NCBI RefSeq assembly: GCF_003350475.1
Contig: NZ_QQAV01000003.1
Span: forward strand, 336,063-400,062
DNA length: 64,000 nt
Direction of reading: 5' to 3'
DNA from: Pseudacidovorax intermedius
GTDB lineage: Bacteria; Pseudomonadota; Gammaproteobacteria; Burkholderiales; Burkholderiaceae_C
Below the pieces are notes generated by a model. That model saw only the letters and a list, made by a program, of their open reading frames with translations, had not been told where the DNA came from and did not search any database. How positions within the stretch are numbered: position 1 is the stretch's first letter; each line of letters starts with the position of its first letter. Positions 48,243 to 64,000 of this stretch are shown here, in pieces. The position numbers were made by a program, and so were the translations under genes.

Positions 48243-48264
48243 CGGCGGCGTGTCGGGCGACCTG

Positions 48265-48756: not shown

Positions 48757-48770
48757 GGCGATCTCCTTGC

Positions 48771-49175: not shown

Positions 49176-49186
49176 GCGGATTCCTT

Positions 49187-49636
49187 TCAGGGGGTGGAAG
49201 ACGATTCGGCCAGCGCCTTGAGCCGGTGCAGGGCCTTCGGCCACATGCCGTCGAGCATCGCTGCATGTTCCTCGCTCCAGCCTTCCAGCCGCAGCTGCAG
49301 GCGGGTGCCGCCCTCGGAAAGTGGGGCGAGGGTGTAGCGCTCATGCATCGGTGCTGAATCGGGCAGGGGCGGCGTCATCGGCTGGCCTTCGCGCAGCTCG
49401 CCCAGGATGCGCAGGCTCAGATGCGTGGGCGGCCGGCGCTGCTCGACGACGGCCTCCATGCCGTTGCAGTCGGGGTCGAGGAAGCGCATGCGGCTGCCTT
49501 CCGACCAGTCGCCCTCGCAGTACGCCCCTTCGCAGAAGGCACTGGCCCAGTCGCGGAAGGCGACGGGATCGAACAGGCAGGCCCAGACCCGCTCGGGCGT
49601 GGCGTCGATGTCGATGGTGTGTTGCTGGTCGCTCAT
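49187..49636 (-). CDS. SRPBCC (AHSA1/START-like) family protein
   Basis: 149 residues. It shows HTIDIDATPERVWACLFDPVAF, GDWSEGSRMRFLDPD, MEAVVEQRRPPTHLSLRILG and the C-terminal long helix EEHAAMLDGMWPKALHRLKAL of the SRPBCC ligand-binding fold. The ligand is unknown. Its ATG overlaps the stop of the preceding SRPBCC gene by 4 bp, so the two are translationally coupled. Confidence 0.87.
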   Translation of the reverse strand: MSDQQHTIDIDATPERVWACLFDPVAFRDWASAFCEGAYCEGDWSEGSRMRFLDPDCNGMEAVVEQRRPPTHLSLRILGELREGQPMTPPLPDSAPMHERYTLAPLSEGGTRLQLRLEGWSEEHAAMLDGMWPKALHRLKALAESSSTP

Positions 49637-50172
49637 GCCCGGGCCTCCGCGATCTGTTTCAGGTTCTGCAGGCCGTCCTCGAAGTCGCGGCCCACCATGC
49701 GGTCCATGTCGATGAAGAGGCCCATGACGCGGCCAATCAGGTTGGCCGGGCCGTGCATGCGCCAGTGCACGGTCGAGCCGCCGCCTGGCGCCGGCTCGAG
49801 CAGGAACTCGGCCTGGTTGTGGCCTTCGAAGGGCTTCAGAAAGTCCAGCTGCAGCTGGACCGCCCGACCGGGCTGCTGGCCGGTGAGCGTCATGCTGCCG
49901 GTGCCGACCTTGCTGCTTTCCCAGTCGTAGCGCGAGCCGACGCCCGTCGGCGGGCCGCTGTAGTGGCTGCGCATCTGCGGGTCCTTGCGGGCGTAGGGAT
50001 TCCAGCGGTTGAAGCCCTGCAGCTCGCTCACCAGCGGCCACAGCTGCTCGGGGCTGGCCTGGATGCGCAGCTGGCGCTCGACCGAGAAGGTGGCGGGCCG
50101 GGTGGCGGCATAGGCCAACAGGGCCAGCACCAGAACGGCCAGGCCGATCAACACGAAGACGACGATTCTCAT
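49633..50172 (-). CDS. Membrane-anchored SRPBCC family protein
   Basis: 179 residues. An N-terminal hydrophobic segment (IVVFVLIGLAVLVLALLAYAA) anchors it in the membrane or serves as an uncleaved signal. The rest is an SRPBCC domain (FSVERQLRIQASPEQLWPLVS, FNRWNPYARKDPQM, GGGSTVHWRMHGP, RDFEDGLQNLKQIAE). The family binds hydrophobic ligands. It lies between the DGPF gene and the soluble SRPBCC gene in the ECF42 cluster. Confidence 0.87.
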   Translation of the reverse strand: MRIVVFVLIGLAVLVLALLAYAATRPATFSVERQLRIQASPEQLWPLVSELQGFNRWNPYARKDPQMRSHYSGPPTGVGSRYDWESSKVGTGSMTLTGQQPGRAVQLQLDFLKPFEGHNQAEFLLEPAPGGGSTVHWRMHGPANLIGRVMGLFIDMDRMVGRDFEDGLQNLKQIAEARA

Positions 50173-50199
50173 GGCGGGTGACTCCTCGGCACGGCCGCC

Positions 50200-50601
50200 T
50201 CAGCGGCCGATCTCCATGTCGCCGCCGGGTCCAAAGTCGGCCTCCTCGTACAGGCGCCGGACCTCGATCTCGCAGGTGATGCCGATGAAGGGGGCCGGGA
50301 AGCGGCTGGCCCAGGCGCGGGCCTCCTCTTCGGAGCGCACCTGGATCAGCGTGTAGCCGGCGATCAGCTCCTTGGTCTCGGCGAAGGGCCCGTCGACGAC
50401 CTCGCGCCGGCCATCGGCGTGGTAGCGCTGGCGCCACCCCTGGCGGCTGGGGCGCAGGCCGGCGCCGTCGAGCAGCACGCCGGCGCGGGCCATCTCCTCG
50501 TGGAAGGCGCCCATGTCTTCGAACAGTTGGGCGAACTCGGGGCCGGGCTTGTCGCCGCGCTCGCTGGTGTCCGTCGCGCGGACCTGGATCATGAATCGCA
50601 T
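50200..50601 (-). CDS. YciI family (DGPF-domain) protein
   Basis: 133 residues. It begins RFMIQVRATDTSERGDKPG and contains the family-defining VVDGPFAETKELIAGYTLIQV. These small ferredoxin-like-fold proteins are the characteristic neighbours of ECF42 sigma factors and depend on them for expression in studied cases. It is the first gene of the cluster and probably sits just after the sigma-factor-dependent promoter. Biochemical role unknown. Confidence 0.9.
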   Translation of the reverse strand: MRFMIQVRATDTSERGDKPGPEFAQLFEDMGAFHEEMARAGVLLDGAGLRPSRQGWRQRYHADGRREVVDGPFAETKELIAGYTLIQVRSEEEARAWASRFPAPFIGITCEIEVRRLYEEADFGPGGDMEIGR

Positions 50602-50710
50602 GGCAGGCTTTCTCCTGGTGGGGCGGCAGCGCCTTTCGCTGCCTTCATGCCTACGACGATCCGGCCGGCCCGGAATCGACAGACACCGGGAAACTACCTA
50701 GCAAGCCGCC

Positions 50711-50736
50711 CCTGAGCCGCCGGACGGCGGCTCAGG
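50711..50736 (-). terminator. Strong hairpin overlapping the end of the second DGPF gene
   Basis: CCTGAGCCGCC-ggac-GGCGGCTCAGG is a perfect 11-bp stem with a 4-nt loop. It spans the stop codon of the YciI gene that ends at 50732. No long T-run follows. It separates this gene from the ECF42 cluster. Confidence 0.6.
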
Positions 50737-51079
50737 CGTAGCAGGGCCCTACGCCACGGATCTCGACCGTGGCCCATTCCGCGGCCGGGCAGCGCCCGGC
50801 CCAGTGCAGCGCCACGGCCTCGTCCTCGGTGTCGAGCAGGAAGAAGCCGCCCACCATCTCCTTGGCCTCGGCAAAGGGTCCGTCCAGCACCTGCACGTCC
50901 TGGGCCCGGCGGGTGAGCCGCCGCGCGGCGGTGCCCAGCGACTCGCGGGCGATCAGCAGGCCGGCCTCCTGCAGTTCGGCGCCGAAGTCCAGCATGCGCT
51001 TGTACGCGGCCTCCCCTTCGGGACGGCTGCGCCCGGCGCGCTGGCCCAGCGGTTCGACGATCAGGAGCATGTGCGGCAT
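50732..51079 (-). CDS. YciI family (DGPF-domain) protein, second copy
   Basis: 115 residues from the ATG of MPHMLLIVEPLGQRAG, which has GAGG upstream; a longer start adds eleven residues without a good site. The family motif VLDGPFAEAKEMVGGFFLL is present, with CPAAEWATVEIRGV at the end. It is transcribed in the same direction as the ECF42 cluster but separated from it by 130 bp with a strong hairpin. Probably a further member of the same regulon; function unknown. Confidence 0.87.
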   Translation of the reverse strand: MPHMLLIVEPLGQRAGRSRPEGEAAYKRMLDFGAELQEAGLLIARESLGTAARRLTRRAQDVQVLDGPFAEAKEMVGGFFLLDTEDEAVALHWAGRCPAAEWATVEIRGVGPCYA

Positions 51080-51158
51080 GGCGGCCTCGCAGGAATGGAC
51101 GATGGCCGACATTCTGGCGCGGCACCGCGTGGCCCTGAGCCAGCGCCATGGCCGGGCT

Positions 51159-52076
51159 CTACCCTTCGTACCGCCGCCCCCGGGCGAGCAACTCGGGCGT
51201 GCCGATCACGGCATTGAGCCCATCGAAGTTCAGCATCGACGAACGCCAGGGCTCGGTGGTCTGGTGCGCCCGCAGGCTGGCGAAGTAGCCCTGCATGGCA
51301 TGCGCCAGCGCGCGCACCGTGCCCCCGGGAAAGATGACGATGCGAAAGCCCAGGCGGCCGAGCTCGTCCGCCGGTGTGATCGGCGTCTTGCCGCCTTCCA
51401 CCATGTTGGCCAGCAGCGGCACGCGGCCGGCAAATTGCTGCGCCGCCTTGGCCAGTTGCTCCGGCGTGCGCAGGGCCTCGATGAAGAGCGCATCGACACC
51501 GCAGGCCAGGTAGGCCTCGGCCCGGTCCATGGCGGCGTCCCAGCCTTCCACGGCCAGCGCGTCGGTGCGGGCGAGGACGAGCGTGTCGGCGCTGCGGCGC
51601 GCGTCCAGTGCGGCGCGCAGCTTGCCCTGCATCTCGGCGATGGGCACCACGGTCTTGCCGTCCAGGTGGCCGCAGCGCTTGGGAAAGCCCTGGTCCTCCA
51701 GCTGGATCATGGCGGCGCCGGCGCGCTCCAGGCCGGCCACGGTGCGCTGCGTGTTCAGCGCATTGCCGAAGCCGGTGTCGGCATCGACGATCACCGGCGT
51801 GCCCACCCGCTCGGTGATGTGGGCCAGCGTGTCGCAGACCTCGGTGAAGGTGGTGAGCCCGATGTCGGAGCGGCCCAGCTTCGTGTAGGCGATGGAGGCA
51901 CCCGACAGGTACAGCGCCTCGAAGCCGGCCTGCTCTGCGAGCAGCGCGCTGAAGGCGTCGTAGACGCCCGGGCACAGCAGGGGCTCGGGCCGTGCCAGGC
52001 GCGCGGCAAGCCCGGCGCCTGCAGGAACGGAAGCGCCGCGCCCAGGGCGCGCCGATGAATAAGTTGTCTCGTTCAT
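51159..52076 (-). CDS. Isocitrate lyase/PEP mutase family lyase (methylisocitrate/dimethylmalate-lyase-like)
   Basis: 305 residues. The family core is clear: YDAFSALLAEQAGFEALYLSG (in parts), metal-binding VDADTGFGNALNTQ, EDQGFPKRCGHLDGK with catalytic Cys135 in KRCGH, LVLARTDALAVEGWD, and NMVEGGKTPI. The cysteine marks the lyase branch (methylisocitrate, dimethylmalate or oxaloacetate C-C cleavage) rather than PEP mutase. It is the last gene of the 12-gene operon, overlapping the flavoprotein gene by 4 bp. The likely role is retro-aldol cleavage of a 2-alkylmalate made by the LeuCD-type hydratase. Confidence 0.92.
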   Translation of the reverse strand: MNETTYSSARPGRGASVPAGAGLAARLARPEPLLCPGVYDAFSALLAEQAGFEALYLSGASIAYTKLGRSDIGLTTFTEVCDTLAHITERVGTPVIVDADTGFGNALNTQRTVAGLERAGAAMIQLEDQGFPKRCGHLDGKTVVPIAEMQGKLRAALDARRSADTLVLARTDALAVEGWDAAMDRAEAYLACGVDALFIEALRTPEQLAKAAQQFAGRVPLLANMVEGGKTPITPADELGRLGFRIVIFPGGTVRALAHAMQGYFASLRAHQTTEPWRSSMLNFDGLNAVIGTPELLARGRRYEG

Positions 52077-53506
52077 GTGGTCGTGGATGTGCGCAGGAAG
52101 GCTGCCATGTCGTGGGCCGCGATGTAGCCGCCCGCCACCGCGCTGAGCAGGCCGTTGCCGGAGAGGTAGCCGCTGACATGGTTGCCGGAGACGCCCCGCG
52201 CCGCGCCGCCCGCCGCCCAGAGGTTGGGCAGCGGCTGGCCCTGGCTATCGAGCACGCGGGTGCGTGCATCGATGTCGAGCCCGCCCTGCGTATGGAACAG
52301 GGCGCCGGTCACCTTCACGGCGTAGAAGGGTGCGTCGAGGCGGCGCGGCAGCCGGCGGCCGAAGGCATCGGGCTCGCCCGGCGTCCAGGCAGACAGCGTC
52401 TCGCCGAGCGTGCCCGGATCGCAGGCGATGAGCGCCGCCAGCGCTTCGAGCGAATCGGCCCGCCGGACGGCACCGGCGCGCTCGGCCTCGACGAAGTCGG
52501 GAAAGCCCTGCGCCAGCGTATGCACCGGCGTGTCGAACACGTTCCAGGCGATGCCGCCGGGCTGGGCGACCACGTGCAGCGCGGCTTCGGAGTAGCCCTG
52601 CGACTCGTCGTGGAAGCGGCGGCCTTCGCGGTTGATCTGCACGCCACCCTCGACCATCAGGGCCCAGGTCATCAGCACGCCGTGCGGCACCGCCCAGGAG
52701 CCGTGGCCCTGGTAGGCCTGCATGTCCGCGAGGTGTGCGCCCAGCGCCTCGCCCCAGTGCAGCGCGGTGCCGTCGTTGCCGGTGTGGCCGCCGAAGGTGG
52801 CCTCGGCCATCTCGGGGATGTAGCGGCGCACCAGCGCGGGCGCCCCACCGTAGCCATTGCAGGCCAGCAGCAGCGCACGGCAGCCGATGGCCTCCACGCT
52901 GCCGTCGGGCCGACGGGCGCGCACACCGAGCACGCGGCGCGCCGCGTCGACCACCAGCTCGGTCGCCCGCGCCTCGCAGAGGATGGGCACCGCCGCCGCC
53001 TCGACCGCGGCCTCCAGCGCCTGCTCCAGCGCGACGCCGGTGCGGGCGGCCAGCGTGTGCATGCGATGGCGGCTGTGGCCCGGATAGAGAAAGCCCGTCA
53101 GCACTTCCCACTGCAGGCCATGGCGCGATTCGAGATGGTCCAGCGCCGGGGCGATGGCCTGCGTGTAGGCCGCCACCAGGGCCGGGGCTGCCGTGCCATG
53201 GGCCTTGCCCTGGATGTCCTCGGCGAAGCGCTCCGCACTGTCCTGGACGCCCAGTGCCTGCTGCGCGCGCGTGCCGGCCGCCGGGATGAAGCCGGAGGAC
53301 AGGCTGGTGGAGCCGCTGGGCTGCGCATCGCGCTCCAGCACCACGGCGTCCACGCCCAGGTCGGCCAGCAGCAGCCCAGCCGTGAGGCCGCAGGCACCGG
53401 CACCGACGATGAGCACGTCGGTCTGTACCGGGGCCTCGAAGCCGGGTTCGACCACCACGCGGGCCATGCTGTCCGGCGCCGCTACGCCCGCGGCACCGAC
53501 GCTCAT
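52073..53506 (-). CDS. FAD-dependent oxidoreductase of the fumarate reductase/3-ketosteroid dehydrogenase type
   Basis: 477 residues. The dinucleotide fold VLIVGAGACGLTAGLLLADLG is followed by SGSTSLSSGFIPAAG, a LACNGYGGAPALVRRYIP segment and a C-terminal NLWAAGGAARGVSGN, then YLSGNGLLSAVAGG, as in soluble fumarate reductase, tricarballylate dehydrogenase and urocanate reductase. It probably introduces or removes a C=C next to a carboxylate. ATGA overlaps at both ends couple it to the amidase upstream and the lyase downstream. No signal peptide; cytoplasmic. Confidence 0.88.
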   Translation of the reverse strand: MSVGAAGVAAPDSMARVVVEPGFEAPVQTDVLIVGAGACGLTAGLLLADLGVDAVVLERDAQPSGSTSLSSGFIPAAGTRAQQALGVQDSAERFAEDIQGKAHGTAAPALVAAYTQAIAPALDHLESRHGLQWEVLTGFLYPGHSRHRMHTLAARTGVALEQALEAAVEAAAVPILCEARATELVVDAARRVLGVRARRPDGSVEAIGCRALLLACNGYGGAPALVRRYIPEMAEATFGGHTGNDGTALHWGEALGAHLADMQAYQGHGSWAVPHGVLMTWALMVEGGVQINREGRRFHDESQGYSEAALHVVAQPGGIAWNVFDTPVHTLAQGFPDFVEAERAGAVRRADSLEALAALIACDPGTLGETLSAWTPGEPDAFGRRLPRRLDAPFYAVKVTGALFHTQGGLDIDARTRVLDSQGQPLPNLWAAGGAARGVSGNHVSGYLSGNGLLSAVAGGYIAAHDMAAFLRTSTTT

Positions 53507-54093
53507 GCCAGCACCCGGGCGCCGAAGTCGGCGCAGTCCACCACATGGGCGACGGTGGCCATGTCGGCCAGTGCGGTCGCATGGGTCTCGGGCTTGAAGG
53601 CGGCGCAGCCGTCGGCCACCACCCAGGTGTCGTAGTCGCGCATGTGCGCATCGCGCACGGTGCTGGCCACCCCGCCGTTGGTGACGATGCCGCACACCGC
53701 CACGCGCTCGATGCCGTTCTTGCGCAGCAGCCAGTCGAGCTGGGTGTTGAAGAAGGCGGAGTACGCCACCTTGTGCACCGTGGCGTCGATGACCGGCTGC
53801 AGCAGCTCCACATTGGCCTGGCCCCAGCTGCCGGGCGCGAAGTCGCCCTGGCGCAGAAAGGGCCGCAGCGCCAGCAGGTGCGGCGAGATCATGGGCGCAC
53901 CGCCCACGCCGGGCCACAGCGTGAACTGGCTGGCCACCACCAGGCCGCCCGCCGCGCGCACGGCCTGCGCCAGCGGCAGCACGCGCTCGGGCAGGGCCTG
54001 CGCGGCCGGGTTGGCACAGCCGCCGCGCGCATAGGCGCCGCGGGCGTCGAGGAAGTCGTTCTGCAGGTCGATGATGACCAGGGCGGTTTTCAT
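53503..54093 (-). CDS. Isochorismatase-family cysteine hydrolase (amidase)
   Basis: 196 residues. Catalytic triad motifs are visible: Asp9 in IIDLQNDF, Lys108 in VHKVAYSAF and Cys134 in VAVCGIVTNGGV with its cis-peptide loop. Members include nicotinamidase, N-carbamoylsarcosine amidase and maleamate amidohydrolase (NicF). Placed between HyuA and a flavoprotein in the operon, it likely releases ammonia from a monoamide or carbamoyl intermediate produced by HyuAB. Its ATG overlaps the hyuA stop by 4 bp. Confidence 0.92.
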   Translation of the reverse strand: MKTALVIIDLQNDFLDARGAYARGGCANPAAQALPERVLPLAQAVRAAGGLVVASQFTLWPGVGGAPMISPHLLALRPFLRQGDFAPGSWGQANVELLQPVIDATVHKVAYSAFFNTQLDWLLRKNGIERVAVCGIVTNGGVASTVRDAHMRDYDTWVVADGCAAFKPETHATALADMATVAHVVDCADFGARVLA

Positions 54094-56135
54094 GGTTGGC
54101 GAAGGATGAGGTTGCCCAGGGCATCGACCACGGCCTCGAAGCCGGGTTCGAGCCAGACGGTGGTGTCGGCCTGTTCGAGGATGGCCGGGCCGGCGATGCG
54201 CGCGCCCACCGGCAGGTCCAGCCGCGCATAGCGCCGCGCCTGCACCCAGTCGCCGCCGAAGTAGACCGGCTGCTCGCCCAGCGGCTCGGTGCGGCCCTCG
54301 CCGCGCGGCGCCAGCACCGACAGGTCGAACTTGGGCCGCACGCCGATGAGGGCATAGCGCAGGTTCATGACCCGCAGGCCGATGCCGTCGAGCACGCGGC
54401 CGAACTCGGCGCGGTAGGCGGCCTCGAAGGCGGCGCGGGCGGCGTCGGCATCGAGCGCATCGGCACGCACCGGCACGGCCACGGTATGGGTCTGGCCCTG
54501 GTAGAGCATGTCCAGCACCAGCTCCTCGCGCACCGACTCGAAGGCCACGCCGGCGCTGTCCAGCCGGGCGCGGCAGTGCGACTCGAAGCCGGCGCGCAGT
54601 TCGCGCAGCGCGGCGAAGTCGATGGCGGCCAGGTCCTGGTTGAGGGTCTGCACCGCGTCGTGGCGCATGTCGGCCATCACGCAGCCCAGGGCCGAGGTGA
54701 CGCCCGGGTAGCGCGGCACGATGCCGGTGACCACGCCCACCTCGCGCATCATGGCGCACACATGCAGGCCGCCACCGCCGCCGAAGGGCATGTAGGCGAA
54801 GCGCCGTGGGTCGTGGCCGCGCTCGATGGACACCAGCCGCATCGCGCCGGCCATCTTGGCATTGGCCACCGTGAGGATGGCCTCGGCCGCGGCCAGCACG
54901 TCCAGGCCCAGCGGCTCGGCCACATGGCGGCGGATGGCCTCGCGGGCCTTTTCGACATCCAGCGCGCCCAGCAGCCCGCCGCCGAGCGGGCGCTGCGCCG
55001 CGATGCGGCCCAGCAGCACATTCGCATCGGTGACGGTGGGCCGCTCGTTGCCGCGGCCATAGCAGGCCGGGCCGGGCACGCTGCCGGCGGACTCGGGGCC
55101 GACCTGCAGCATGCCGCCCGCGTCCACGCTGGCGATGGAGCCGCCGCCAGCGCCGATGGTCTCGATCTGGATCATGGGCGAGCGCACCACCAGGCCGAAG
55201 TCGATGCTGGTCTGCGAGGCCAGGGCAGCCTGCCCGCCGGCGATGAGCGACACGTCGAAGGAGGTGCCGCCGATGTCGCCAGTGATTACGTCCGGATGTC
55301 CCGCCGCCGTGGCGATGGCCGCGCAGGCGATGACGCCCGCGGCCGGGCCGGAGAGCGCCGTGCGCACCGGCAGTTCGCCCGCCGTGCGGCGCGACATCAC
55401 GCCGCCGTTGCTCTGCACGATCAGCAGCTCGCCGCCGAAGCCGCGCGCGCGCAGGTCGCCGTCCAGCCGCTCCAGGTAGCGGCCGACCACGGGCTGCAGT
55501 GCCGCGTTGAGGCTGGCGGTGGAGGCGCGCTCGAACTCGCGGATCTCGGGCAGCACCTCGGCCGCGGCGGTCACATGGTCGTTGGGCCAGAGCGCGCGCA
55601 CCGCCGCCACCGCGGCCTGCTCGTTGCTGGGGTTGGCATAGGTGTTGATGAAGAACACGCACACGGCCTCGCAGCCCTGCTCCAGCAGCTGGCGGGCGGC
55701 GCTGCGCACCTGGTCCAGGTCCACCGGCGTGTGCACGCTGCCGTCGGCCAGCACGCGCTCGTCCACCTCCAGGCGCAGGGCGCGCTCGATCACCGGCTCG
55801 AAGCCGCCGCGCAGGCCCCAGGTCTGGGGCCGGTCGCGCCGGCGCATCTCCAGCACGTCGCGAAAGCCGCGGGTGGTGATCAGGCCGGTGCGGGCCACCT
55901 TGCGCTCCAGCAGCGCGTTGGTGCCCACGGTGGTGCCGTGGATGATGGTGGCCAGGCTCTGCGCGCCGCGGTCGTCCACGCGCGCGATGCCGTTCATGAA
56001 GCCCACCGATTCTTCGCCGCGGGTGGAGGGCACCTTGACGATCTCGGCGGTGCCGGCCGCCTCGTCGAGCACGAAGAGGTCGGTGAAGGTGCCGCCGACG
56101 TCCACGCCGACGACACGGGTGCGCGCGTCGCTCAT
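54090..56135 (-). CDS. hyuA: Hydantoinase/oxoprolinase family protein, subunit A
   Basis: 681 residues. The N-terminal phosphate loop VVGVDVGGTFTDLFVLD, the HGTTVGTNALLERKV segment, SGPAAGVIACAAIA, DIGGTSFDVSLI and ETIGAGGGSIA are HyuA/OplA ATPase-fold motifs; FAYMPFGGGGGLHVCAM follows. With HyuB these enzymes use ATP to open 5-oxoproline, hydantoins or related cyclic amides, or to activate ketones (acetone carboxylase). Only A and B subunits are present and there is no gamma subunit, which favours ring-opening. ATGA overlaps with both neighbours. Confidence 0.93.
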   Translation of the reverse strand: MSDARTRVVGVDVGGTFTDLFVLDEAAGTAEIVKVPSTRGEESVGFMNGIARVDDRGAQSLATIIHGTTVGTNALLERKVARTGLITTRGFRDVLEMRRRDRPQTWGLRGGFEPVIERALRLEVDERVLADGSVHTPVDLDQVRSAARQLLEQGCEAVCVFFINTYANPSNEQAAVAAVRALWPNDHVTAAAEVLPEIREFERASTASLNAALQPVVGRYLERLDGDLRARGFGGELLIVQSNGGVMSRRTAGELPVRTALSGPAAGVIACAAIATAAGHPDVITGDIGGTSFDVSLIAGGQAALASQTSIDFGLVVRSPMIQIETIGAGGGSIASVDAGGMLQVGPESAGSVPGPACYGRGNERPTVTDANVLLGRIAAQRPLGGGLLGALDVEKAREAIRRHVAEPLGLDVLAAAEAILTVANAKMAGAMRLVSIERGHDPRRFAYMPFGGGGGLHVCAMMREVGVVTGIVPRYPGVTSALGCVMADMRHDAVQTLNQDLAAIDFAALRELRAGFESHCRARLDSAGVAFESVREELVLDMLYQGQTHTVAVPVRADALDADAARAAFEAAYRAEFGRVLDGIGLRVMNLRYALIGVRPKFDLSVLAPRGEGRTEPLGEQPVYFGGDWVQARRYARLDLPVGARIAGPAILEQADTTVWLEPGFEAVVDALGNLILRQP

Positions 56136-57826
56136 GGCTGTTCTCCTGGGTGGGCCGCGTCGGCTGCGTCGGCCAGGTAGCCGCGGCGGGCATCCACCGC
56201 GCGTTCGTCGGCGCTGCGCTCCGCGGGCGGACCCCAGCCACCGCCGCCGGGGGTTTCGAGCCGCACGCGGTCGCCGCGCTCGAGCGTGATGCCCAGCATC
56301 TTCGACACCATGGGCGGCGTGTGCCACGCGCCCTGCGAATGCCAGCTGAAGCGGTTGGCCTGCGCATCGCCGCCACCGGCGATGCCCTTGGGCGCCGACT
56401 TGCCGCGCTCGCCGAAGACGAAGGCCTGGGCCTGGCGCTCCAGCAGTTCGATCTCGTAGACGGCACCCAGGCCGCCGCGGTGCGTGCCGTCGCCGCCCGA
56501 GCCCGGGCGCAGCGCCCATTCGGTGAAGCGCACCGGATAGGCGGCCTCCAGGATCTCCAGCGGCGGGATGGTGGCGGTGGAGATCGGCGCATTGCCGTGG
56601 TTGAGGCCGTCGCCGCCCGCATGGGCACCGTGGCCGCCACCGAAGAAGCTGAACATCACCCAGCGCTGGCCGCTGCGCGCGCCTTCGCTGCGGTGGCCGG
56701 CGATGGACAGCGCGTTGATGGTGCCGTAGGCCTGGGCCACGGCGCGCCGTGGATCGGCCTGGGCCGCGGCGCTGAAGATCACGTCGATCATGCGCAGGAT
56801 GGTCTCGGTGTAGCCGCCCACCGGCCGCGGGCGCTGCGCCGTGATGACCAGGCCTTCGGGCATGACGAACTCCACCGCATCGAGCACGCCGGCATTGGCC
56901 GGCACCTCGGGAAACAGGTGCTTGAGCGCCACGTAGCAGGCCGCCACGGCCGTGGCGCGCGAGATGTTGACGGGACCCTGGCATTGGGGCGAGCTGCGCG
57001 AGAAGTCCAGCACCAGCCGCTCGCCCTGCACCGTCATGTCCAGCGCGATGGTGAGGGCCTCGTCCGTCACTCCGTCGTTGTCGAGCACGTCCGAGAAACT
57101 GTAGACACCGTCGGGCAGCGAGGCGATCTGCGCGCGCATCAGCCGGCGGGCGCGCTCGCGCAGCGCCTGCAGGGCCTGCAGCACCACGGCGTCGCCGTAG
57201 GCATCGAGCAGTTCGGCCAGGCGGCGCGCGCCCAGCTCCAGCGCAGCCAGCTGGCCGTTGAGGTCGCCCCACAGGCTGTCGGGCAGACGGGTGTTGGCCC
57301 GCAGGATGGCCAGCACGTCGGGATTGATCTGCCCGCCCTGCACGATGCGCACCGGCGGGATCTGCACCGCCTCCTGCCAACATTCGGTGGCGGCGGGGTT
57401 GTAGTTGCCCGGCACCGCGCCGCCCACGTCGTGCCAGTGCGCGGCCGAGGCCAGGAAGCACAGCAGCCGGCCGTCGCGGAACACCGGGCGCACCAGCTTG
57501 AAGTCGTTGGCATGGGTGCCGCCCTCGTAGGGGTCGTTGAACAGCCAGACCTCGCCGTCGCGCATGCCGCCCAGGGACTCGGCCGCGCGCTTGGCGGCGC
57601 GCACCGCGAAGGCCATGGCGCCCACGAACACGGGCAGGCCCGACTTGCCCTGCACCAGCGTGTCGCCGCTCGCGGCGTCGTACAGGCCGTGGCAGGCATC
57701 GTGCGCCTCGGCAATGATGGGATTGAACGCGCTGCGGTAGAGCGTCGCGTCCATCTCGTCGGCGATCTGCTCGAGTCGCCCCTTGAGCACCGCCAGCGTG
57801 ACGGGGTCGAGTGTGGCTTCAGACAT
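56132..57826 (-). CDS. hyuB: Hydantoinase B/oxoprolinase family protein
   Basis: 564 residues. It starts LDPVTLAVLKGRLEQIADEMD and includes LYRSAFNPIIAEAHDACHGLYD (in parts), VWLFNDPYEGGTHANDF, HWHDVGGAVPGNYNPAATE, SSPQCQGPVNISRATAVAACY and the C-terminal GGGGWGPP, all HyuB family landmarks. It forms the second subunit with HyuA. It overlaps LeuD by 8 bp and HyuA by 4 bp. A His/Asp-rich metal site is expected in the NDPYEGG region by family analogy. Confidence 0.93.
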   Translation of the reverse strand: MSEATLDPVTLAVLKGRLEQIADEMDATLYRSAFNPIIAEAHDACHGLYDAASGDTLVQGKSGLPVFVGAMAFAVRAAKRAAESLGGMRDGEVWLFNDPYEGGTHANDFKLVRPVFRDGRLLCFLASAAHWHDVGGAVPGNYNPAATECWQEAVQIPPVRIVQGGQINPDVLAILRANTRLPDSLWGDLNGQLAALELGARRLAELLDAYGDAVVLQALQALRERARRLMRAQIASLPDGVYSFSDVLDNDGVTDEALTIALDMTVQGERLVLDFSRSSPQCQGPVNISRATAVAACYVALKHLFPEVPANAGVLDAVEFVMPEGLVITAQRPRPVGGYTETILRMIDVIFSAAAQADPRRAVAQAYGTINALSIAGHRSEGARSGQRWVMFSFFGGGHGAHAGGDGLNHGNAPISTATIPPLEILEAAYPVRFTEWALRPGSGGDGTHRGGLGAVYEIELLERQAQAFVFGERGKSAPKGIAGGGDAQANRFSWHSQGAWHTPPMVSKMLGITLERGDRVRLETPGGGGWGPPAERSADERAVDARRGYLADAADAAHPGEQP

Positions 57827-58358
57827 GGGATTCCTTGGAGAAGCGTTGCTTGAGTTCGTTGAGCAGGCCGCCGGCGCGCACCCGCGCCATCAGAAAGGCG
57901 GGCACGGGGTCGCAGGCGAGCATGCGGCCGTCGGCGGCCCGCACCTGGGGCTGGTCGGGGTCGTCCACGGCCAGGCCGATGCGCTCGCCTTCCTGCAGCG
58001 CGGCCACGGCGGGGCAGGTCAGCAGCAGCAGGCCGACGTTGAAGGCGTTGCGGAAGTACAGGCCGCTGTAGCTGGGCGCGATGACGGCGCGCACGCCCAG
58101 GGCCACGAGCACGGACGCGGCCTGCTCGCGCGAGGAGCCGATGCCGAAGCCCGGCCCGGCCACCACCACGTCGCCGGGGCGCACCTGGGCGGCGAACTCG
58201 GGCCGCATCGATTCGAGGCAATGGCGGGCGATGACGTCCATGCCGAACTTCATGGCATGGCCGGGGGCCAGCGCATCGGTGTCGACGTTGGCGCCCAGGC
58301 GCCACACGCGGTGGCCGGCTGCGGCGCTGTCGTCGCCGGGGAGAGAAGACGGGCTCAT
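57819..58358 (-). CDS. Aconitase-family small subunit (LeuD-like; hydro-lyase swivel domain)
   Basis: 179 residues from the ATG overlapping the large-subunit stop. It has a VWRLGANVDTDALAPGH start (NVDTD is typical), GPGFGIGSSREQAASVLVALGVRAV and YFRNAFNVGLLLL, the swivelling-domain motifs of LeuD. Together with the upstream large subunit it would form a [4Fe-4S] hydro-lyase such as isopropylmalate isomerase, maleate/citraconate hydratase or dimethylmaleate hydratase. The setting beside HyuAB and a C-C lyase argues for a catabolic hydratase rather than leucine biosynthesis. Confidence 0.9.
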   Translation of the reverse strand: MSPSSLPGDDSAAAGHRVWRLGANVDTDALAPGHAMKFGMDVIARHCLESMRPEFAAQVRPGDVVVAGPGFGIGSSREQAASVLVALGVRAVIAPSYSGLYFRNAFNVGLLLLTCPAVAALQEGERIGLAVDDPDQPQVRAADGRMLACDPVPAFLMARVRAGGLLNELKQRFSKESHV

Positions 58359-59674
58359 GACGGGGTGCTCGGCGACGAAGGAGCGACGACGGAAGAACGC
58401 GACTCCGCGAGCAGCTCGCGCGGATCGGTGATGCACCCCCGCAGCGCCGAGGCCGCCACGGTGTAGGGCGAAGCGAGGAACACCTCGGCCTGCGCCGAGC
58501 CCATGCGGCCCTTGAAGTTGCGCGCCGTGCTGGAGATGACCCGCGTCGCGCCCTGGATGGCCTGGCCGTAGCCGGCGCAGGCACCGCAGGCGCTGGGCAG
58601 CAGCTCGGCGCCTGCATCGCGCAGCACCTGGGCCACGCCGGCCGCCTCGGCCCGCTGCCAGTCGTGCACGCTGGCCGGCGCCACCAGCAGCCGCATGCCG
58701 GCGGCGATGCGGCGGCCCGCCAGCACGCGGGCGGCGGCCTGCAGGTCCTCCAGCTTGGCGCCGGTGCAGGCGCCGATGTAGGCCAGCTGCACCGGCTCGT
58801 CCGCCACGGCATCCACCGTGCGGCCGTTCTGCGGGCTGTGGGGCAAGGCCACCATGGGCACGAGTTGCGTCGCATCGAAGTCGTGGTCAATGCACGCGGC
58901 GTCTTCATCGGTCTGCCAGCGGGCGAGTTCCTCGTCGCTCACCGTCACACCCACCTCGCGCAACCAGGCGGCGGTCGTGGCATCGGGCGCCACCAGGCCG
59001 GCCTGGGCGCCCAGCTCGGCGCTCAGGTTGGACAGTGTCATGCGCTCGGCCATCGAGAGGCCGCGCACCGTGTCGCCCGCGAACTCCACCGCCTGGTAGT
59101 CGCCGCCGTTCATGCCCAGGCGGCCGATCATGTGCAGCATCATGTCCTTGGCGCACACGCCGTCGGCCAGCCGGCCCTGCCAGCGCATGCGCAGGGTGCG
59201 CGGCACCTTCACCCAGATCTCGCCGGTGACCACCACGCCCAGCATCTCGGTGCTGCCGATGCCGAACATGTAGCTGCCGAAGGCGCCGCCGGTGGGCGAG
59301 TGCGAATCGCCGCCGACGCAGAACAGGCCCGGGCGCAGGTGCCCCTTCTGCGGCAGCACCACATGGCAGATGCCCTGGCTGTCGTGCACATGGGGCAGGC
59401 CCTGCTCGGCCGCCCAGTCGCGCGCGATGCGCACGATGCGCCGCGCGTCGTCGTCGGCCTCGGGCACGAAGTGGTCCATCACCAGCACCACGCGGGACGG
59501 ATCCCAGATGCGCGCGCCCAGCTCCTCCAGCATGGGCTTGAGCCGCCGCGGGCCGGAGGAGTCGTGGAACATGGCCAGGTCCACACGGCAGTTGACGATC
59601 TCGCCTTCGCGCACCGCGGGTATGCCCGCGGCTTGCGCGATGAGCTTCTGCGCCAGGGTCTGGGGGGTGCTCAT
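58355..59674 (-). CDS. Aconitase-family large subunit (LeuC-like; [4Fe-4S] hydro-lyase)
   Basis: 439 residues. Iron-sulfur ligands are Cys303 in YIGACTGAKLED and Cys363/Cys366 in LPSACGACAGYG. Other landmarks: VMDHFVPEADDDARRI, GDSHSPTGGAFGSYMFGIGSTE, and RNFKGRMGSAQAEVFLASP. It is shorter than LeuC of leucine biosynthesis and closer in size to the archaeal/DmdA-type two-subunit hydratases (about 420 residues). It lies 1 bp after the ABC ATPase gene and overlaps the small subunit gene, so it belongs to the imported substrate's pathway. Confidence 0.92.
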   Translation of the reverse strand: MSTPQTLAQKLIAQAAGIPAVREGEIVNCRVDLAMFHDSSGPRRLKPMLEELGARIWDPSRVVLVMDHFVPEADDDARRIVRIARDWAAEQGLPHVHDSQGICHVVLPQKGHLRPGLFCVGGDSHSPTGGAFGSYMFGIGSTEMLGVVVTGEIWVKVPRTLRMRWQGRLADGVCAKDMMLHMIGRLGMNGGDYQAVEFAGDTVRGLSMAERMTLSNLSAELGAQAGLVAPDATTAAWLREVGVTVSDEELARWQTDEDAACIDHDFDATQLVPMVALPHSPQNGRTVDAVADEPVQLAYIGACTGAKLEDLQAAARVLAGRRIAAGMRLLVAPASVHDWQRAEAAGVAQVLRDAGAELLPSACGACAGYGQAIQGATRVISSTARNFKGRMGSAQAEVFLASPYTVAASALRGCITDPRELLAESRSSVVAPSSPSTPS

Positions 59675-59675
59675 G

Positions 59676-60440
59676 TCATACCCCCAGGTAGGCGCGGCGC
59701 AGGGCGTCGGAGTTCAGGAGTTCCTCCGGACGACCCGAGAAGCGCATGCTGCCGTTCTCGATCACGTAGGCGCGGTCGGCCATCTCCAGCGCCTGGCCCA
59801 CGTTCTGCTCCACCAGCAGGATGGCCAGGCCCTCGCCGCGCAGGCGGCCGATGAGGGCGAACATCTCCTCCACCAGCAGCGGCGACAGGCCGAGCGAGGG
59901 CTCATCCAGGATCAGCAGCTCGGGCTCGGCCATCAGGCCGCGGCCGATGGCCAGCATCTGCTGCTCGCCACCGCTCATGGTGCCGGCCAACTGGGCGGTG
60001 CGCTCCTTGAGCCGCGGGAAGATGCCGAACACCTTCTCCAGGTTCTGCGCGCGGCGCGCCCGGGCGCGGGTGAAGGAGCCCAGCTCCAGGTTCTCCATCA
60101 CGCTCAGGTTGGGGAAGATCTTGCGGCCCTCGGGCACCTGGATCAGACCCGCCCGCACCACCTCGCGGTAGTGCGCGCCGCCCAGCTCCACGCCGTTGAA
60201 GCGCACCGAGCCCGCCCAGGGCTTCATCAGGCCGCACAGCGTGTGGTTGAAGGTGGTCTTGCCGGCGCCGTTGCTGCCCAGCAGGGCCACCATCTCGCCG
60301 CGCGCGACCTGCAGGTCCACGCCGCGCAGCACCTCGATGCGGCCGTAGCCGCCGCGCAGGCCGCGCACGTCGAGCAGGGTCTCTGCGGCGGGCGTGCTCG
60401 CGTCGCGCACGGTCTGCGTCTCGATTGCCTGTGCACTCAT
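59676..60440 (-). CDS. livF: Branched-chain-type ABC transporter ATP-binding protein LivF
   Basis: 254 residues. Walker A GSNGAGKTT, signature MSGGEQQM, Walker B LLILDEPSLGL and the H-loop region LLVEQNVGQAL are all present. LivF-type ending with RRAYLGV. It energises uptake with LivG. Its start overlaps the livG stop by 4 bp. The LivFGHMK importers take branched amino acids, urea, aromatic acids or other substrates; here the substrate is probably what the downstream enzymes break down. Confidence 0.95.
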   Translation of the reverse strand: MSAQAIETQTVRDASTPAAETLLDVRGLRGGYGRIEVLRGVDLQVARGEMVALLGSNGAGKTTFNHTLCGLMKPWAGSVRFNGVELGGAHYREVVRAGLIQVPEGRKIFPNLSVMENLELGSFTRARARRAQNLEKVFGIFPRLKERTAQLAGTMSGGEQQMLAIGRGLMAEPELLILDEPSLGLSPLLVEEMFALIGRLRGEGLAILLVEQNVGQALEMADRAYVIENGSMRFSGRPEELLNSDALRRAYLGV

Positions 60441-61207
60441 GCCTGCACCTCCGCCTGCGCCGTCATGCCGCGCTGCAGCCGGGCGGCCGTGCCATGGCCC
60501 AGGTAGGCCTCGACCACCTTGGGGTCGCGGGTGACGACCTGCGGCGGCCCTTCGGCGATCAGCTCGCCCTGGGCCAGCACCCACACATGCTCGGCCAGGT
60601 TCATCACGGCCTGCATCACATGCTCGATCATGAGGACGGTGACGCCCTCCTCGCGGATGGCGCGCACCACGGGCAGCATCTCGGCGATCTCCTGCGGATT
60701 GAGGCCGGCCAGCACCTCGTCGAGCAGCAGCAGCCGCGGCCGGGTGGCCAGCGCGCGCGCCAGCTCCAGCCGCTTGCGGCCGGCCACGGTGAGGTCGGAG
60801 GCCGGCTTGTCCAGCTGCGGCCCCAGGCCCACGCGCTCGGCAACGGCCGTGGCGCTGGCCAGGGCCTCGCGCCGGTTGGCATGGTGCAGGTGGGCGCCCA
60901 CCGCGATGTTCTCGCGCACGGTCTGCGCCGCGAAGGGCTGCACGATCTGGAAGGTGCGGCCCATGCCCATGCGGGCATTGAGGTGCGGCGCCTGGCCGGT
61001 GATGTCGCGCCCGCCCAGGCGCACCCGGCCGGTGTCGGGGCGCTGGAAGCCCGACATCAGCGAAAACAGCGTGGTCTTGCCGGCGCCATTGGGGCCGATC
61101 AGCGCGGTGAGCGAGCCCGCCGGCACCGCCAGCGAGACCTCGCGCACAGCGCGCAGGCCGCCGAAGGTCTTGGAGACGCCTTCGACTTCGAGCAGGTACT
61201 CAGCCAC
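60437..61207 (-). CDS. livG: Branched-chain-type ABC transporter ATP-binding protein LivG
   Basis: 256 residues. Walker A GPNGAGKTTLFSLMSG, signature LTVAGRKRLELARAL, Walker B LLLLDEVLAGLNPQE and MIEHVMQAV, typical of LivG with its long N-terminal subdomain (GRTFQIVQPFAAQTVREN). It forms a heterodimeric ATPase with LivF. It overlaps livM by 8 bp. Confidence 0.95.
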   Translation of the reverse strand: MAEYLLEVEGVSKTFGGLRAVREVSLAVPAGSLTALIGPNGAGKTTLFSLMSGFQRPDTGRVRLGGRDITGQAPHLNARMGMGRTFQIVQPFAAQTVRENIAVGAHLHHANRREALASATAVAERVGLGPQLDKPASDLTVAGRKRLELARALATRPRLLLLDEVLAGLNPQEIAEMLPVVRAIREEGVTVLMIEHVMQAVMNLAEHVWVLAQGELIAEGPPQVVTRDPKVVEAYLGHGTAARLQRGMTAQAEVQA

Positions 61208-62162
61208 CGCGGCCTCCCTTCCAGAGCCGGCGCACGTTCTGCCCCACGCCGGCGATGCCGCGCGGCAGGAACATCACGATCAGCACCAGCACGCAGCCAT
61301 AGATGACCATGTTGATGCCCGGCAGCTCGCCGAACAGGTTGCGCGTCAGGTCGGCCAGCACATGCAGCGCAAAGGCACCCAGCAGCGGACCCCACACGGT
61401 GCCCATGCCGCCCACGATGGCCGCCACCAGCGCCTCCACCGACGCAGTGGAGCCGAAGGCGATGCCCGGGTCGATGTACTGGAACACCTGCACATAGAAG
61501 GCGCCGGCCAGGCCCATGAAGCCGCCCGAGAGCACGATGGCGCCGAGCTTGACGCGCAGCGGGTCGACGCCGGCCGCGCGGGCCGCGTCCTCGTTGTCGC
61601 GCACCGCCTGCAGGTAGGCGCCGAAGCGCGAGTGCCGCAGCCAGGCACTGACCAGCAGTGCGGCCACCACCATGGCGAGGATCACGTACAGGTAGCCCAC
61701 CCGCGAGCCGAACTGCAGGTTGGCCACCGATTCGCGCAGCGGCACCATCAGGCCGACCCCGGCCCCGGTGAAGGGCAGCGACAGCGCGAGGATGCGACAG
61801 ACCTCGGCAAAGGCCAGCGTGACCAGCGCGAAGTACGAACCCTTGAGGCCGTAGCGGAAGCTCAGCGCCCCCACGATCAGGCCGACCAGCGCCGCGACGC
61901 CCGCCGCCGCCACCAGCGCCACCCAGGGGTTGAGGCCCCACTGCAGCTGCGCGATGGCCTGCACATAGGCGCCGAAGCCGAAGAACAGCGCATGCCCGAA
62001 GGAGAACTGCCCGCCGAAGCCACCCAGGATGTTCCAGGCCTGCGCCAGCAGCCCCGCATACAGCGCCATCATGACGAAGTTGAGCCAGACGCCCGAGGTC
62101 GTCACGAGCGGGATGGCGCCCACCACGAGGGCGAACACCACGATGAAGAGAACCGATTTCAT
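61200..62162 (-). CDS. livM: Branched-chain-type ABC transporter permease LivM
   Basis: 320 residues with about eight to ten hydrophobic segments. Characteristic LivM stretches: AQAWNILGGFGGQFSFGHALFFG (in parts), GSYFALVTLAFAEVCRILAL, RDNEDAARAAGVDPLRVKLGAI and VEALVAAIVGGMGTVWGPLLGA. Forms the inner-membrane channel with LivH. ATGA overlap with livH upstream. Confidence 0.94.
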   Translation of the reverse strand: MKSVLFIVVFALVVGAIPLVTTSGVWLNFVMMALYAGLLAQAWNILGGFGGQFSFGHALFFGFGAYVQAIAQLQWGLNPWVALVAAAGVAALVGLIVGALSFRYGLKGSYFALVTLAFAEVCRILALSLPFTGAGVGLMVPLRESVANLQFGSRVGYLYVILAMVVAALLVSAWLRHSRFGAYLQAVRDNEDAARAAGVDPLRVKLGAIVLSGGFMGLAGAFYVQVFQYIDPGIAFGSTASVEALVAAIVGGMGTVWGPLLGAFALHVLADLTRNLFGELPGINMVIYGCVLVLIVMFLPRGIAGVGQNVRRLWKGGRGG

Positions 62163-63031
62163 GCCTTGCTTCCGAAGAGGCCCTGGGGACGGAACAGCAG
62201 CACCGCGATGAAGATGAGGAAGATGCCGATCTGTCCCAGCGACTCGCCCAGGAAGAGGCCGCCCAGCGACTCGACCACGCCGATCAGCAGCCCGCCCACC
62301 AGTGCCCCGGTGAAGCTGCCCATGCCGCCCAGCACCACGATGGTGAAGGCCACCAGCACGAAGCCGCCGCCCACCTGCGGGTTGACGTAGTAGGCCGGCA
62401 GCAGGAAGCAGGCGGCCGCGCCCAGGCAGGCCAGGCCGATGCCGAAGCTCATCGCGTAGACATGGTCGACGTCGATGCCCATGAGCCGCGCGCCCTGCTT
62501 CTCCTTGGCCACGGCGCGGATCGCGCGGCCCAGGTCGGTGGCCTTGACGATCCACAGCAGCACGGCCGCCCCGGCCAACGCACCGCCGAAGGCGATGAGC
62601 TTGGGCAGCGCGATGAAGGCCGGGCCGATCTGCAGCGTCGTCAGCGTGTAGGGCGTGTCGATGGTGCGCGTGTCGGAGCGGAAGAACAGCAGCGCCAGGT
62701 TCTCCATCACGATCGACAGGCCCAGCGTGACCAGCAGGATGTTCTCGTCCTTGCCGTGGCTGGCGCGGTTGATGATGCCGCGCTGCAGTGCGTAGCCCAG
62801 CGCGAACATGCCCGCCACCACCAGCGGCAGCGCCAGGTAGGGGTCGATGCCGAACTGCGCACGCAGCCAGTAGACGGCATAGAGCGCCAGCATCAGCGAT
62901 GCGCCGTGCGCGAAGTTGATGATGTGCAGCACGCCGTAGATCAGCGTGAGCCCCAGGGCGATGAGGGCGTAGACCGCCCCGGTGGTGAGTCCGTTCAGCA
63001 CGGACGGCACCACGATCGACAGATCGAACAT
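62159..63031 (-). CDS. livH: Branched-chain-type ABC transporter permease LivH
   Basis: 290 residues, polytopic. LivH motifs: LNGLTTGAVYALIALGLTLIYGVLHIINFAHG (seen in parts near the N-terminus), ENILLVTLGLSIVMENLAL, AVAKEKQGARLMGIDVDHVYAM and FTIVVLGGMGSFTGALVGGLLIG. It pairs with LivM. It follows the receptor gene by 24 bp. Confidence 0.94.
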   Translation of the reverse strand: MFDLSIVVPSVLNGLTTGAVYALIALGLTLIYGVLHIINFAHGASLMLALYAVYWLRAQFGIDPYLALPLVVAGMFALGYALQRGIINRASHGKDENILLVTLGLSIVMENLALLFFRSDTRTIDTPYTLTTLQIGPAFIALPKLIAFGGALAGAAVLLWIVKATDLGRAIRAVAKEKQGARLMGIDVDHVYAMSFGIGLACLGAAACFLLPAYYVNPQVGGGFVLVAFTIVVLGGMGSFTGALVGGLLIGVVESLGGLFLGESLGQIGIFLIFIAVLLFRPQGLFGSKA

Positions 63032-63055
63032 GGAAAAGGAGCCTGGTGGTGCCGT

Positions 63056-64000
63056 TCAGGCCTTGAGCGGGAACAGGGGCTCGGCCTCGCGGTATTCGCG
63101 CGGGATGATGACCTTGATGTCCTTGTCGATGACCTGCGTCATCAGCGGACGGCCGCCCTGGTTCTGGCCATTGACGAACTTGGTCGGGCCATAGGGCATG
63201 AAGTGGTCGGAGAAGGTGCTCTTCTCCAGCGCGTCGATCAGCGCCGCGCGCTCGCTGGACTTGGCCCGCTCCAGCGCATCGGCCAGCAGCATCATGCTGG
63301 TGTAGGTCATGAACAGCTCATAGCTGAAGTACAGCTTCTGGGCCTCGGCCCGCTTCTTCAGCGCCTGGGCGCGCGCGTCCTTGGGGTTGAACCAGTGGTT
63401 GCAGTCGATGATGCCGTGCGAGGCATCGGGGAACTCCTGCACGAACTTGTAGCTCGACGCCGCGCCGCCCAGCACCGAGTAGATGGCCTTGGGCACCACG
63501 CGCTGCTGCTGCATGGTGCGCACCAGCAGTGCGTATTCGTTGTAGTAGTTGGCCGGGATCACGATGTCCGGGTTGACGGACTTGATGCGCAGCACGATGT
63601 TGTTGAAGTCGCGCGTGGGGTTGGCGTGCTTGATGACTTCCTTCACCTCGAAGCCATAGCCCGGCAGTTCGCGCGACAGCAGGTTGGCCGTGCCGGTGCC
63701 GAAGAGCGACTCCTCGTGGATGATCATCACGGTCTTGGCCGGCTTGCCCGCCACGCTGTTGAGCACGTGCAGGTTGGCCATCGCCAGATCCGTCACGGCC
63801 TTGTAGCCGGGGCCGAAGCGGAAGGTGTTCTTCAGACCGCGCTCGACGATCTGGTCGGCCACGCCCACGTCCACGATGTGCGGCAGGTTGTACTTGGCGG
63901 CGGCCTGCGTGGTGGCCAGGCAGATGGCCGAGGCGAAGGCGCCGACCACGGCCGACACACCGGCCTCGTTCATCTTCTCGACCTCGGCCGCGCCGGCCTG
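63056..64000 (-). CDS. ABC transporter substrate-binding protein (LivK-type), 5'-truncated by window edge
   Basis: About 315 C-terminal residues of a type I periplasmic binding protein; the frame stays open to the right edge, so the start and signal peptide are outside. Recognisable stretches: AVVGAFASAICLATTQAAAKYN, TVMIIHEESLFGTGTANLL, VNPDIVIPANYYNEYALLVR and a long helix DALERAKSSERAALIDALEKS (each shown in part). It delivers substrate to LivHM. It is the first visible gene of the 12-gene operon, and its ligand would reveal the pathway's substrate. Confidence 0.92.
   Translation of the reverse strand, partial: QAGAAEVEKMNEAGVSAVVGAFASAICLATTQAAAKYNLPHIVDVGVADQIVERGLKNTFRFGPGYKAVTDLAMANLHVLNSVAGKPAKTVMIIHEESLFGTGTANLLSRELPGYGFEVKEVIKHANPTRDFNNIVLRIKSVNPDIVIPANYYNEYALLVRTMQQQRVVPKAIYSVLGGAASSYKFVQEFPDASHGIIDCNHWFNPKDARAQALKKRAEAQKLYFSYELFMTYTSMMLLADALERAKSSERAALIDALEKSTFSDHFMPYGPTKFVNGQNQGGRPLMTQVIDKDIKVIIPREYREAEPLFPLKA

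Follow-up and report, generated by a model that had tools for sequence, protein, structure and literature searches.

We have analyzed a catabolic operon at positions 51159-64000 of a 64,000-nucleotide stretch of the Pseudacidovorax intermedius genome (NCBI RefSeq assembly GCF_003350475.1, contig NZ_QQAV01000003.1, positions 336,063 to 400,062), referred to here as the window. The operon combines an ABC importer of the branched-chain amino acid type with a ring-opening hydrolase, a hydratase and a lyase, and represents a recurrent importer-to-cleavage pathway of Burkholderiales, apparently without a described substrate. We put it at an even chance that this operon serves the uptake and breakdown of a substituted five-membered cyclic imide of the maleimide or succinimide type. 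Among its relatives the core, and often the importer too, stays constant while the ring-opener gene changes between unrelated families. The assembled pathway appears to be undescribed; its component families are known.

We infer the substrate, the order of the steps, the products, and the reactions of the isochorismatase-fold protein (ICH) and of the flavoprotein as follows. The importer LivKHMGF would bring in the cyclic imide, and the ATP-dependent HyuAB would open its ring to a half-amide of the maleamate type. The second C-N bond would then be lost, perhaps aided by ICH, to leave a substituted maleate; since ICH lacks the cysteine nucleophile, this loss may use the substrate's own adjoining carboxylate. 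For a saturated ring, the flavoprotein would bring the succinate derivative to the oxidation state of a maleate by desaturation. LeuCD would hydrate the substituted maleate to a substituted malate, which the PrpB-like lyase would cleave to a 2-oxo acid, likely pyruvate, and a carboxylate, which for some lineages at least is probably glutarate.

Twelve open reading frames (ORFs), all on the minus strand, fill this part of the window and are separated by 1-24 bp gaps or joined by 4-8 bp overlaps; the twelve co-directional, tightly spaced genes of the original prediction agree with the ORF coordinates and junctions. The gap between LivK and LivH is 24 bp and that between LivF and LeuC is 1 bp. 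Overlaps of 4 bp join LivH/LivM, LivG/LivF, LeuC/LeuD, HyuB/HyuA, HyuA/ICH and flavoprotein/lyase, and overlaps of 8 bp join LivM/LivG and LeuD/HyuB; the ICH/flavoprotein overlap is 4 bp provided that the flavoprotein starts at 53506. LivK is truncated at the window edge, and in the contig the whole gene ends at the window-equivalent position 64270. A GntR-family regulator lies on the same strand at 64295-65074, outside the window and 24 bp beyond LivK, so the unit is one of 13 genes, GntR-LivKHMGF-LeuCD-HyuBA-ICH-FAD-lyase, where FAD is the flavoprotein. Profile scans against Pfam and NCBIfam covered 9 of the 12 window proteins and confirmed the families of all 9, while LivG, LivM and LivH were named from reading of the ORFs and from tblastn synteny. 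The genes are:

63056..64000 (full to 64270), minus: LivK, periplasmic binding protein of the branched-chain-amino-acid-type ABC importer; Pfam Peripla_BP_6, 97 bits on the in-window part; full ORF 404 aa
62159..63031, minus: LivH permease, named by reading; ORF 290 aa; synteny in relatives
61200..62162, minus: LivM permease, named by reading; ORF 320 aa; synteny
60437..61207, minus: LivG ATPase, named by reading; ORF 256 aa; synteny
59676..60440, minus: LivF ATPase; Pfam ABC_tran, 102 bits; NCBIfam LivF is the top model at 246 bits, under its cutoff of 441
58355..59674, minus: large subunit of a LeuC/HacA/DmdA-type hydratase; NF001614, 510 bits (cutoff 385); hacA_fam, 410 bits (385.7)
57819..58358, minus: small subunit of a LeuD/DmdB-type hydratase; TIGR02087, 139 bits (cutoff 109)
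56132..57826, minus: HyuB, hydantoinase B/oxoprolinase subunit; Pfam Hydantoinase_B, 565 bits; NCBIfam caprolactamase beta, 283 bits (cutoff 1000)
54090..56135, minus: HyuA, hydantoinase A/oxoprolinase subunit; Pfam Hydantoinase_A, 282 bits; NCBIfam caprolactamase alpha, 506 bits (cutoff 1000)
53503..54093, minus: ICH, isochorismatase-fold protein without the amidase catalytic Cys; Gly141, with Asp9 and Lys108 kept
52073..53506 (alternative start 53467), minus: flavocytochrome-c/TcuA-like flavoprotein; Pfam FAD_binding_2, 172 bits; flavo_cyto_c, 217 bits (cutoff 285)
51159..52076, minus: PrpB-like lyase of the isocitrate-lyase/PEP-mutase superfamily, with the motif KRCGH; prpB, 277 bits (cutoff 354)

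Conservation was assessed from relatives of LeuC. A total of 570 were confirmed, and the best 80 of these 570, mostly named Burkholderiales, were mapped; many of the 80 loci share the neighbours of the window and their order. Draws of genomes from the order and the family gave 57 distinct places besides the window, of which 56 were used; the exception was an incomplete one in G575. Together with the 80 mapped loci, 6 plasmid loci and the window itself, these make 143 loci. Removal of L096 (Peribacillus) and of 5 loci whose LeuC duplicated another or formed part of it left 137, and the requirement of a flank of 7.5 kb or more downstream of LeuC reduced these to 97 non-redundant loci, the window included. 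The gene finder, trained on window genes, misses genes in low-GC loci, and counts were taken from tblastn instead, with identity thresholds of at least 60% for the lyase and HyuA, 50% for ICH and 45% for the flavoprotein. The lyase accompanies LeuCD in 88 of the 97 loci, the flavoprotein is found in 69, HyuA (taken for HyuAB) in 45, ICH in 48, the GntR regulator in 80 and LivK in 61. Importer, ring opener, hydratase and KRCGH lyase had been put forward as one conserved unit, and this is borne out across the 97 loci.

Distribution of the operon is patchy, which suggests gain and loss. Among 399 genomes sampled from the order, 18 have a LeuC match at E≤1e-150, and among 399 sampled from the family 43 do (the source genome being counted in both); none was found at this level in 5 genomes listed under the same genus; records named Pseudacidovorax carry a LeuC 95-96% identical to that of the window. 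One version of the operon sits on a Burkholderia plantarii plasmid.

The hydratase is not the biosynthetic leucine isomerase, judged by family-model scores, which rather than trees were used to place both LeuC and the lyase. LeuC scores 231 bits on the biosynthetic leuC model TIGR00170 against a cutoff of 560, while it passes NF001614 (510, cutoff 385) and TIGR01343 (410, cutoff 385.7), and LeuD passes TIGR02087 (139, cutoff 109). The pair had been placed outside the biosynthetic family before, and its HacA/DmdB-type matches uphold this. The motifs GACTGAK and CGxC of LeuC are conserved at 95% or more in 142 loci. A separate biosynthetic leuC is present in the genome (G000:C3, at ~87 kb; 773 bits, cutoff 560), followed by LeuD- and LeuB-like ORFs named by reading. 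This second leuC, together with the presence of LeuCD and lyase side by side in 88 of 97 loci, leaves a negligible probability that the operon is a chance juxtaposition or a set of misread leucine biosynthesis genes; the former was refuted by the conserved neighbourhoods. In homoaconitase, a charged residue for a third carboxylate lies in the recognition loop of the small subunit. According to PMC7308503, this loop governs substrate recognition. In LeuD the corresponding Lys37 is found in 133 of 139 loci, but the genome's own biosynthetic-type LeuD reads FLKS there, so that the lysine does not discriminate for homoaconitase. A second operon of the same genome (L168:7509-15158; G000:C1, ~1473.5-1481.2 kb), with a divergent regulator-like gene, contains relatives of LeuC (367 bits, cutoff 385) and LeuD (104, cutoff 109), a PrpB-like protein (160 bits) and Liv-like importer genes, the latter named by reading. 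It is perhaps another catabolic unit of the 2-alkylmalate type, by the likeness of its genes, and repeats the theme of importer, hydratase and lyase.

HyuA and HyuB belong to the hydantoinase/oxoprolinase family, with Pfam PF01968, PF05378 and PF02538 all over cutoff. HyuAB is the ring opener in 45 of the 97 loci. In 13 others its place is taken by CycAH, an amidohydrolase of ~490 residues resembling allantoinase and dihydropyrimidinase (DHPase), whose top model is the allantoinase AllB (228 bits, cutoff 358), and in 5 by PDA1 and PDA2, proteins of the polysaccharide-deacetylase family with the PuuE allantoinase as top model (128 and 142 bits, cutoff 425). Two ring-opener types in one locus were found neither among the 97 loci nor among all 143; the lack of co-occurrence of HyuAB and CycAH has a chance probability of 1.4e-4 with related loci treated as independent. 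In a further group, AtuA-like, DUF4387 and SDR genes accompany a gene with weak similarity to deacetylases. LivK of the CycAH loci is 70-85% identical to that of the window (n=17, median 82) and LivK of the HyuAB loci 72-100% (n=45, median 84), whereas LivK of the AtuA group is only 52-56% identical (n=19). From these identities, the ligand imported by HyuAB-type and CycAH-type operons is probably the same. HyuAB, allantoinase/DHPase and PuuE-type enzymes all hydrolyse cyclic amides, imides or ureides, and the exchange of HyuAB for other such hydrolases argues that the substrate is one of these. The PuuE/PgdA group has been tied to a cyclic imidase: Aspergillus nidulans HxnM has a PgdA/PuuE-like structure, and the amide hydrolase HxnN then frees the nitrogen (both according to PMC9304392). 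PDA1/PDA2 and the isochorismatase-fold protein ICH2 of some relatives resemble this pair; in contrast, the Aspergillus system acts on a six-membered imide and has no hydratase or lyase, and the window operon uses HyuAB.

The curated family nearest to HyuAB is the caprolactamase CapAB, whose alpha and beta subunits are the top NCBIfam models. HyuAB might accordingly be a lactamase of this kind, with the remaining genes processing the opened amino acid. We rate this as very improbable: the scores of 506 and 283 bits are far below the cutoffs of 1000, the window operon has no aminotransferase, and the PuuE and DHPase families found in place of HyuAB are, to our knowledge, not lactamases of this kind.

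At the half-amide step the window operon departs from what had been expected of it. ICH had been taken for an ordinary amidase that releases ammonia. In all 51 of 51 loci, however, the position of the catalytic cysteine is occupied by glycine (Gly141, in GIVTNGGVAST), opposite the Cys of triuret hydrolase (labelled C162) in the alignment, so that the Asp-Lys-Cys triad of isochorismatase-like cysteine amidases is incomplete; Asp9 and Lys108 are invariant in 34 alignment rows. An AlphaFold model built on this 34-row alignment (pLDDT 93.7) folds like biuret and triuret hydrolases, RutB and NicF. Among the 97 loci, ICH occurs in 44 of the 45 with HyuAB and in 4 that lack HyuAB, and is therefore probably under selection. 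Without its cysteine it may reveal a different catalytic strategy within a large hydrolase family. It shares the isochorismatase fold with the maleamate amidase NicF/Ami of aerobic nicotinate degradation and differs from it in the loss of the catalytic Cys. ICH2, which stands at the half-amidase position of the PDA loci, keeps the cysteine in 7 of 7 cases, and its top PDB match is the maleamate amidase Ami (4l07, 118 bits).

Ureide-acting enzymes are found among the relatives of both proteins (RutB, biuret hydrolase and triuret hydrolase for ICH, N-carbamoylsarcosine amidohydrolase for ICH2), and the top models of CycAH, all under cutoff, include hydantoin-5-propionate amidohydrolase besides allantoinase and others. 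A 5-substituted hydantoin could then be opened by HyuAB, CycAH or the PuuE-like enzymes to an N-carbamoyl acid, decarbamoylated by the isochorismatase-fold enzyme, and its carbon skeleton processed by the later genes. This hydantoin or ureide route seems unlikely, as it would yield an amino acid and the window operon has no deaminase or aminotransferase; furthermore, LeuCD and the lyase require an unsaturated diacid, and ICH lacks the cysteine.

The lyase has the KRCGH loop, the Mg-binding and acid residues and the fold of the ICL/PEP-mutase superfamily, with K133, R134, C135, G136, H137, D98, D100, E127 and R170 invariant in 38 of 38 rows. PMC11982470 assigns the motif KRCGH to PrpB, but the lyase remains under the PrpB cutoff (TIGR02317, 277 bits vs 354.4). 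Its top PDB match is methylisocitrate lyase (191 bits), with dimethylmalate lyase at 162. The order of an aconitase-family hydratase and a KRCGH lyase that yields pyruvate and a dicarboxylate is that of the 2-methylcitrate cycle, from which the window differs by this sub-cutoff lyase. Contig C8 of the same genome has a further group of aconitase-family and PrpB-like matches (109 and 283 bits, both under cutoffs). The anaerobic fermentation of nicotinate proceeds through dimethylmaleate hydratase, DmdAB, and then 2,3-dimethylmalate lyase. It likewise employs a LeuCD-type hydratase and an ICL-superfamily lyase on a substituted maleate and malate, whereas the Burkholderiales operon adds to the pair an ABC importer, a cyclic-amide hydrolase and a flavoprotein, and the other genes of the fermentation were not recognised in the window operon. 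The top PDB match of the flavoprotein is a fumarate reductase (156 bits). It falls under the curated cutoffs for TcuA (124 and 70 bits; 369 or 372.55) and flavo_cyto_c (217; 285), and is missing from 28 of the 97 loci at its threshold.

Glutarate as a product is hinted at by glutaryl-CoA dehydrogenase (GCDH), which adjoins the core in some loci. It was found near the core in 7 of the 143 loci, from 6 genomes (L020, L091, L080 and L122 on one contig, L112, L113 and L125), in loci of all three ring-opener types; L080/L122 are of the CycAH type and L125 of the HyuAB type. In L020 (Caballeronia hypogeia) and L091 (the B. plantarii plasmid) the core is followed by ETF genes, GCDH and a CoA-transferase. 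The L020 enzyme scores 750 bits to 3gnc and 574 to the human enzyme, and the L091 copy is 94% identical to it; GCDH in the other loci was called at 60% identity or more to the L020 copy. The top model of the CoA-transferase is succinate-glutarate CoA-transferase (544 bits, cutoff 750), the next scoring 321. GCDH was found in 55 of 56 genomes searched, so that its mere presence is uninformative and its adjacency is the signal. The copy next to the core is the sole copy at E≤1e-130 in 4 of the 55 genomes, where ~0.23-0.25 would be expected, and adjacency in three lineages has a P of ~0.002 by a rough Poisson estimate. The exchange of ring openers and the glutarate genes together leave a small set of testable compounds as candidate substrates. 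In L112 and L113, from another family of the order, GCDH, a Cys-containing ICH2 and PuuE-like genes run in one direction, divergent from LeuCD, and an aldehyde dehydrogenase and a formamidase-like gene are found nearby in L112.

Several observations weigh against the cyclic imide. Hydantoins and ureides are substrates of the ring-opener families as well, and the structural model of the lyase resembles methylisocitrate lyase, dimethylmalate lyase and other members of the superfamily to a similar degree. Of the 97 loci, 15 have LeuCD and the lyase with no other tested module, and 4 have none at all. The GCDH test was post hoc; one of the three lineages (G460, the genome of L080) had been seen beforehand, and P is ~0.02 without it. 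GCDH adjacency is moreover confined to a minority of 7 in 143 loci, and in the genomes of L112 and L113 a lyase was searched for at E≤1e-60 without a match. The nucleophile of amidases is missing from ICH, and in the CycAH loci among the 97 neither ICH nor ICH2 reaches its threshold, so that no half-amidase is seen there. Loss of the half-amide nitrogen by substrate-assisted chemistry, although speculative, would explain these CycAH loci. Two alkyl groups strongly enhance the attack of a carboxylate on a neighbouring amide. Such attack by the carboxylate of a maleamate on its own amide (Kirby chemistry) is described in PMC3913492. Overall, the original prediction is supported for the conserved unit, the non-biosynthetic LeuCD and a substrate of the cyclic-amide type (cyclic amide, imide or ureide, as the exchange of ring openers supports), and fails for ICH as an ordinary amidase.

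If the carboxylate is glutarate and the cleavage is PrpB-like and gives pyruvate, the starting imide would be hematinic acid, 3-(2-carboxyethyl)-4-methylmaleimide. Hematinic acid is a classic product of tetrapyrrole oxidation, and the operon family might then be the bottom half of the breakdown of heme, bilins and chlorophyll, an idea that we consider a long shot. Hematinic acid would be opened by HyuAB, CycAH or the PuuE-like imidase, and the disubstituted maleamate would lose ammonia via its own carboxylate. ICH would serve here as a half-amidase assisted by the substrate and working without a cysteine, or as an anhydride hydrolase. LeuCD would make methylhomoisocitrate, which the lyase, as a new 'methylhomoisocitrate lyase', would split into pyruvate and glutarate. 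The glutarate would enter the glutarate CoA-transferase/GCDH route, whose genes adjoin the core in some lineages. No heme oxygenase genes were found in the vicinity of the core, and for this reason hematinic acid stays a bold guess. Among the titles, abstract openings and listed matches of the open-licence literature, neither this gene set nor a catabolic route for hematinic acid was described; the compound is mentioned in, for example, PMC6018153, PMC11442138 and PMC8131568. If true, the use of tetrapyrrole-derived cyclic imides as food would supply a missing link in the cycling of pigment carbon and nitrogen.

Some loci join the core to other genes. In L051, L062, L071 and L079 (Pigmentiphaga) and L056 (Burkholderiales), LeuCD, ICH and the lyase occur without HyuAB or the flavoprotein, and a TctC-like gene, named by reading, and a maleate-isomerase-like gene adjoin the core. 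An HspB/PnpA-like monooxygenase is present in L051, L056, L071 and L079 and absent from L062; L056, L071 and L079 have an HpaE-like dehydrogenase. These five loci may represent a pyridine-type route into the same core. For the operon as a whole, a monooxygenase path from a pyridine ring could deliver an alkylated maleamate, which the core would take on to maleate, malate and cleavage products, an explanation that we think improbable. At 40% identity or more, the monooxygenase is found in 6 of the 143 loci (L029, L051, L056, L071, L079 and L105); that of L079 is closest to PnpA (202 bits) and to the 6-hydroxy-3-succinoylpyridine monooxygenase HspB (200 bits). A distant relative of maleate isomerase occurs in 9 of the 143 loci (44 bits for the L079 copy), and nicotinate degradation employs a maleamate amidase and a maleate isomerase, which favours this route. 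However, no oxygenase of this kind reaches that identity in the window operon or in 137 of the 143 loci, and ring-opening hydrolases are the commoner neighbours.

LeuCD and the lyase are accompanied by a TctC-like gene, again named by reading, in 15 of the 143 loci (L019, L095, L099-L103, L106, L142-L145 and L148-L150), in which no match was found for HyuB, CycAH, ICH, the flavoprotein or LivK. This composition suggests uptake of a carboxylic acid that is already opened. In the window itself, a sigma-factor-like gene and small YCII-, SRPBCC- and VOC/PhnB-like genes, named by ORF reading, lie on the minus strand at 46977-51112, 46 bp past the lyase.

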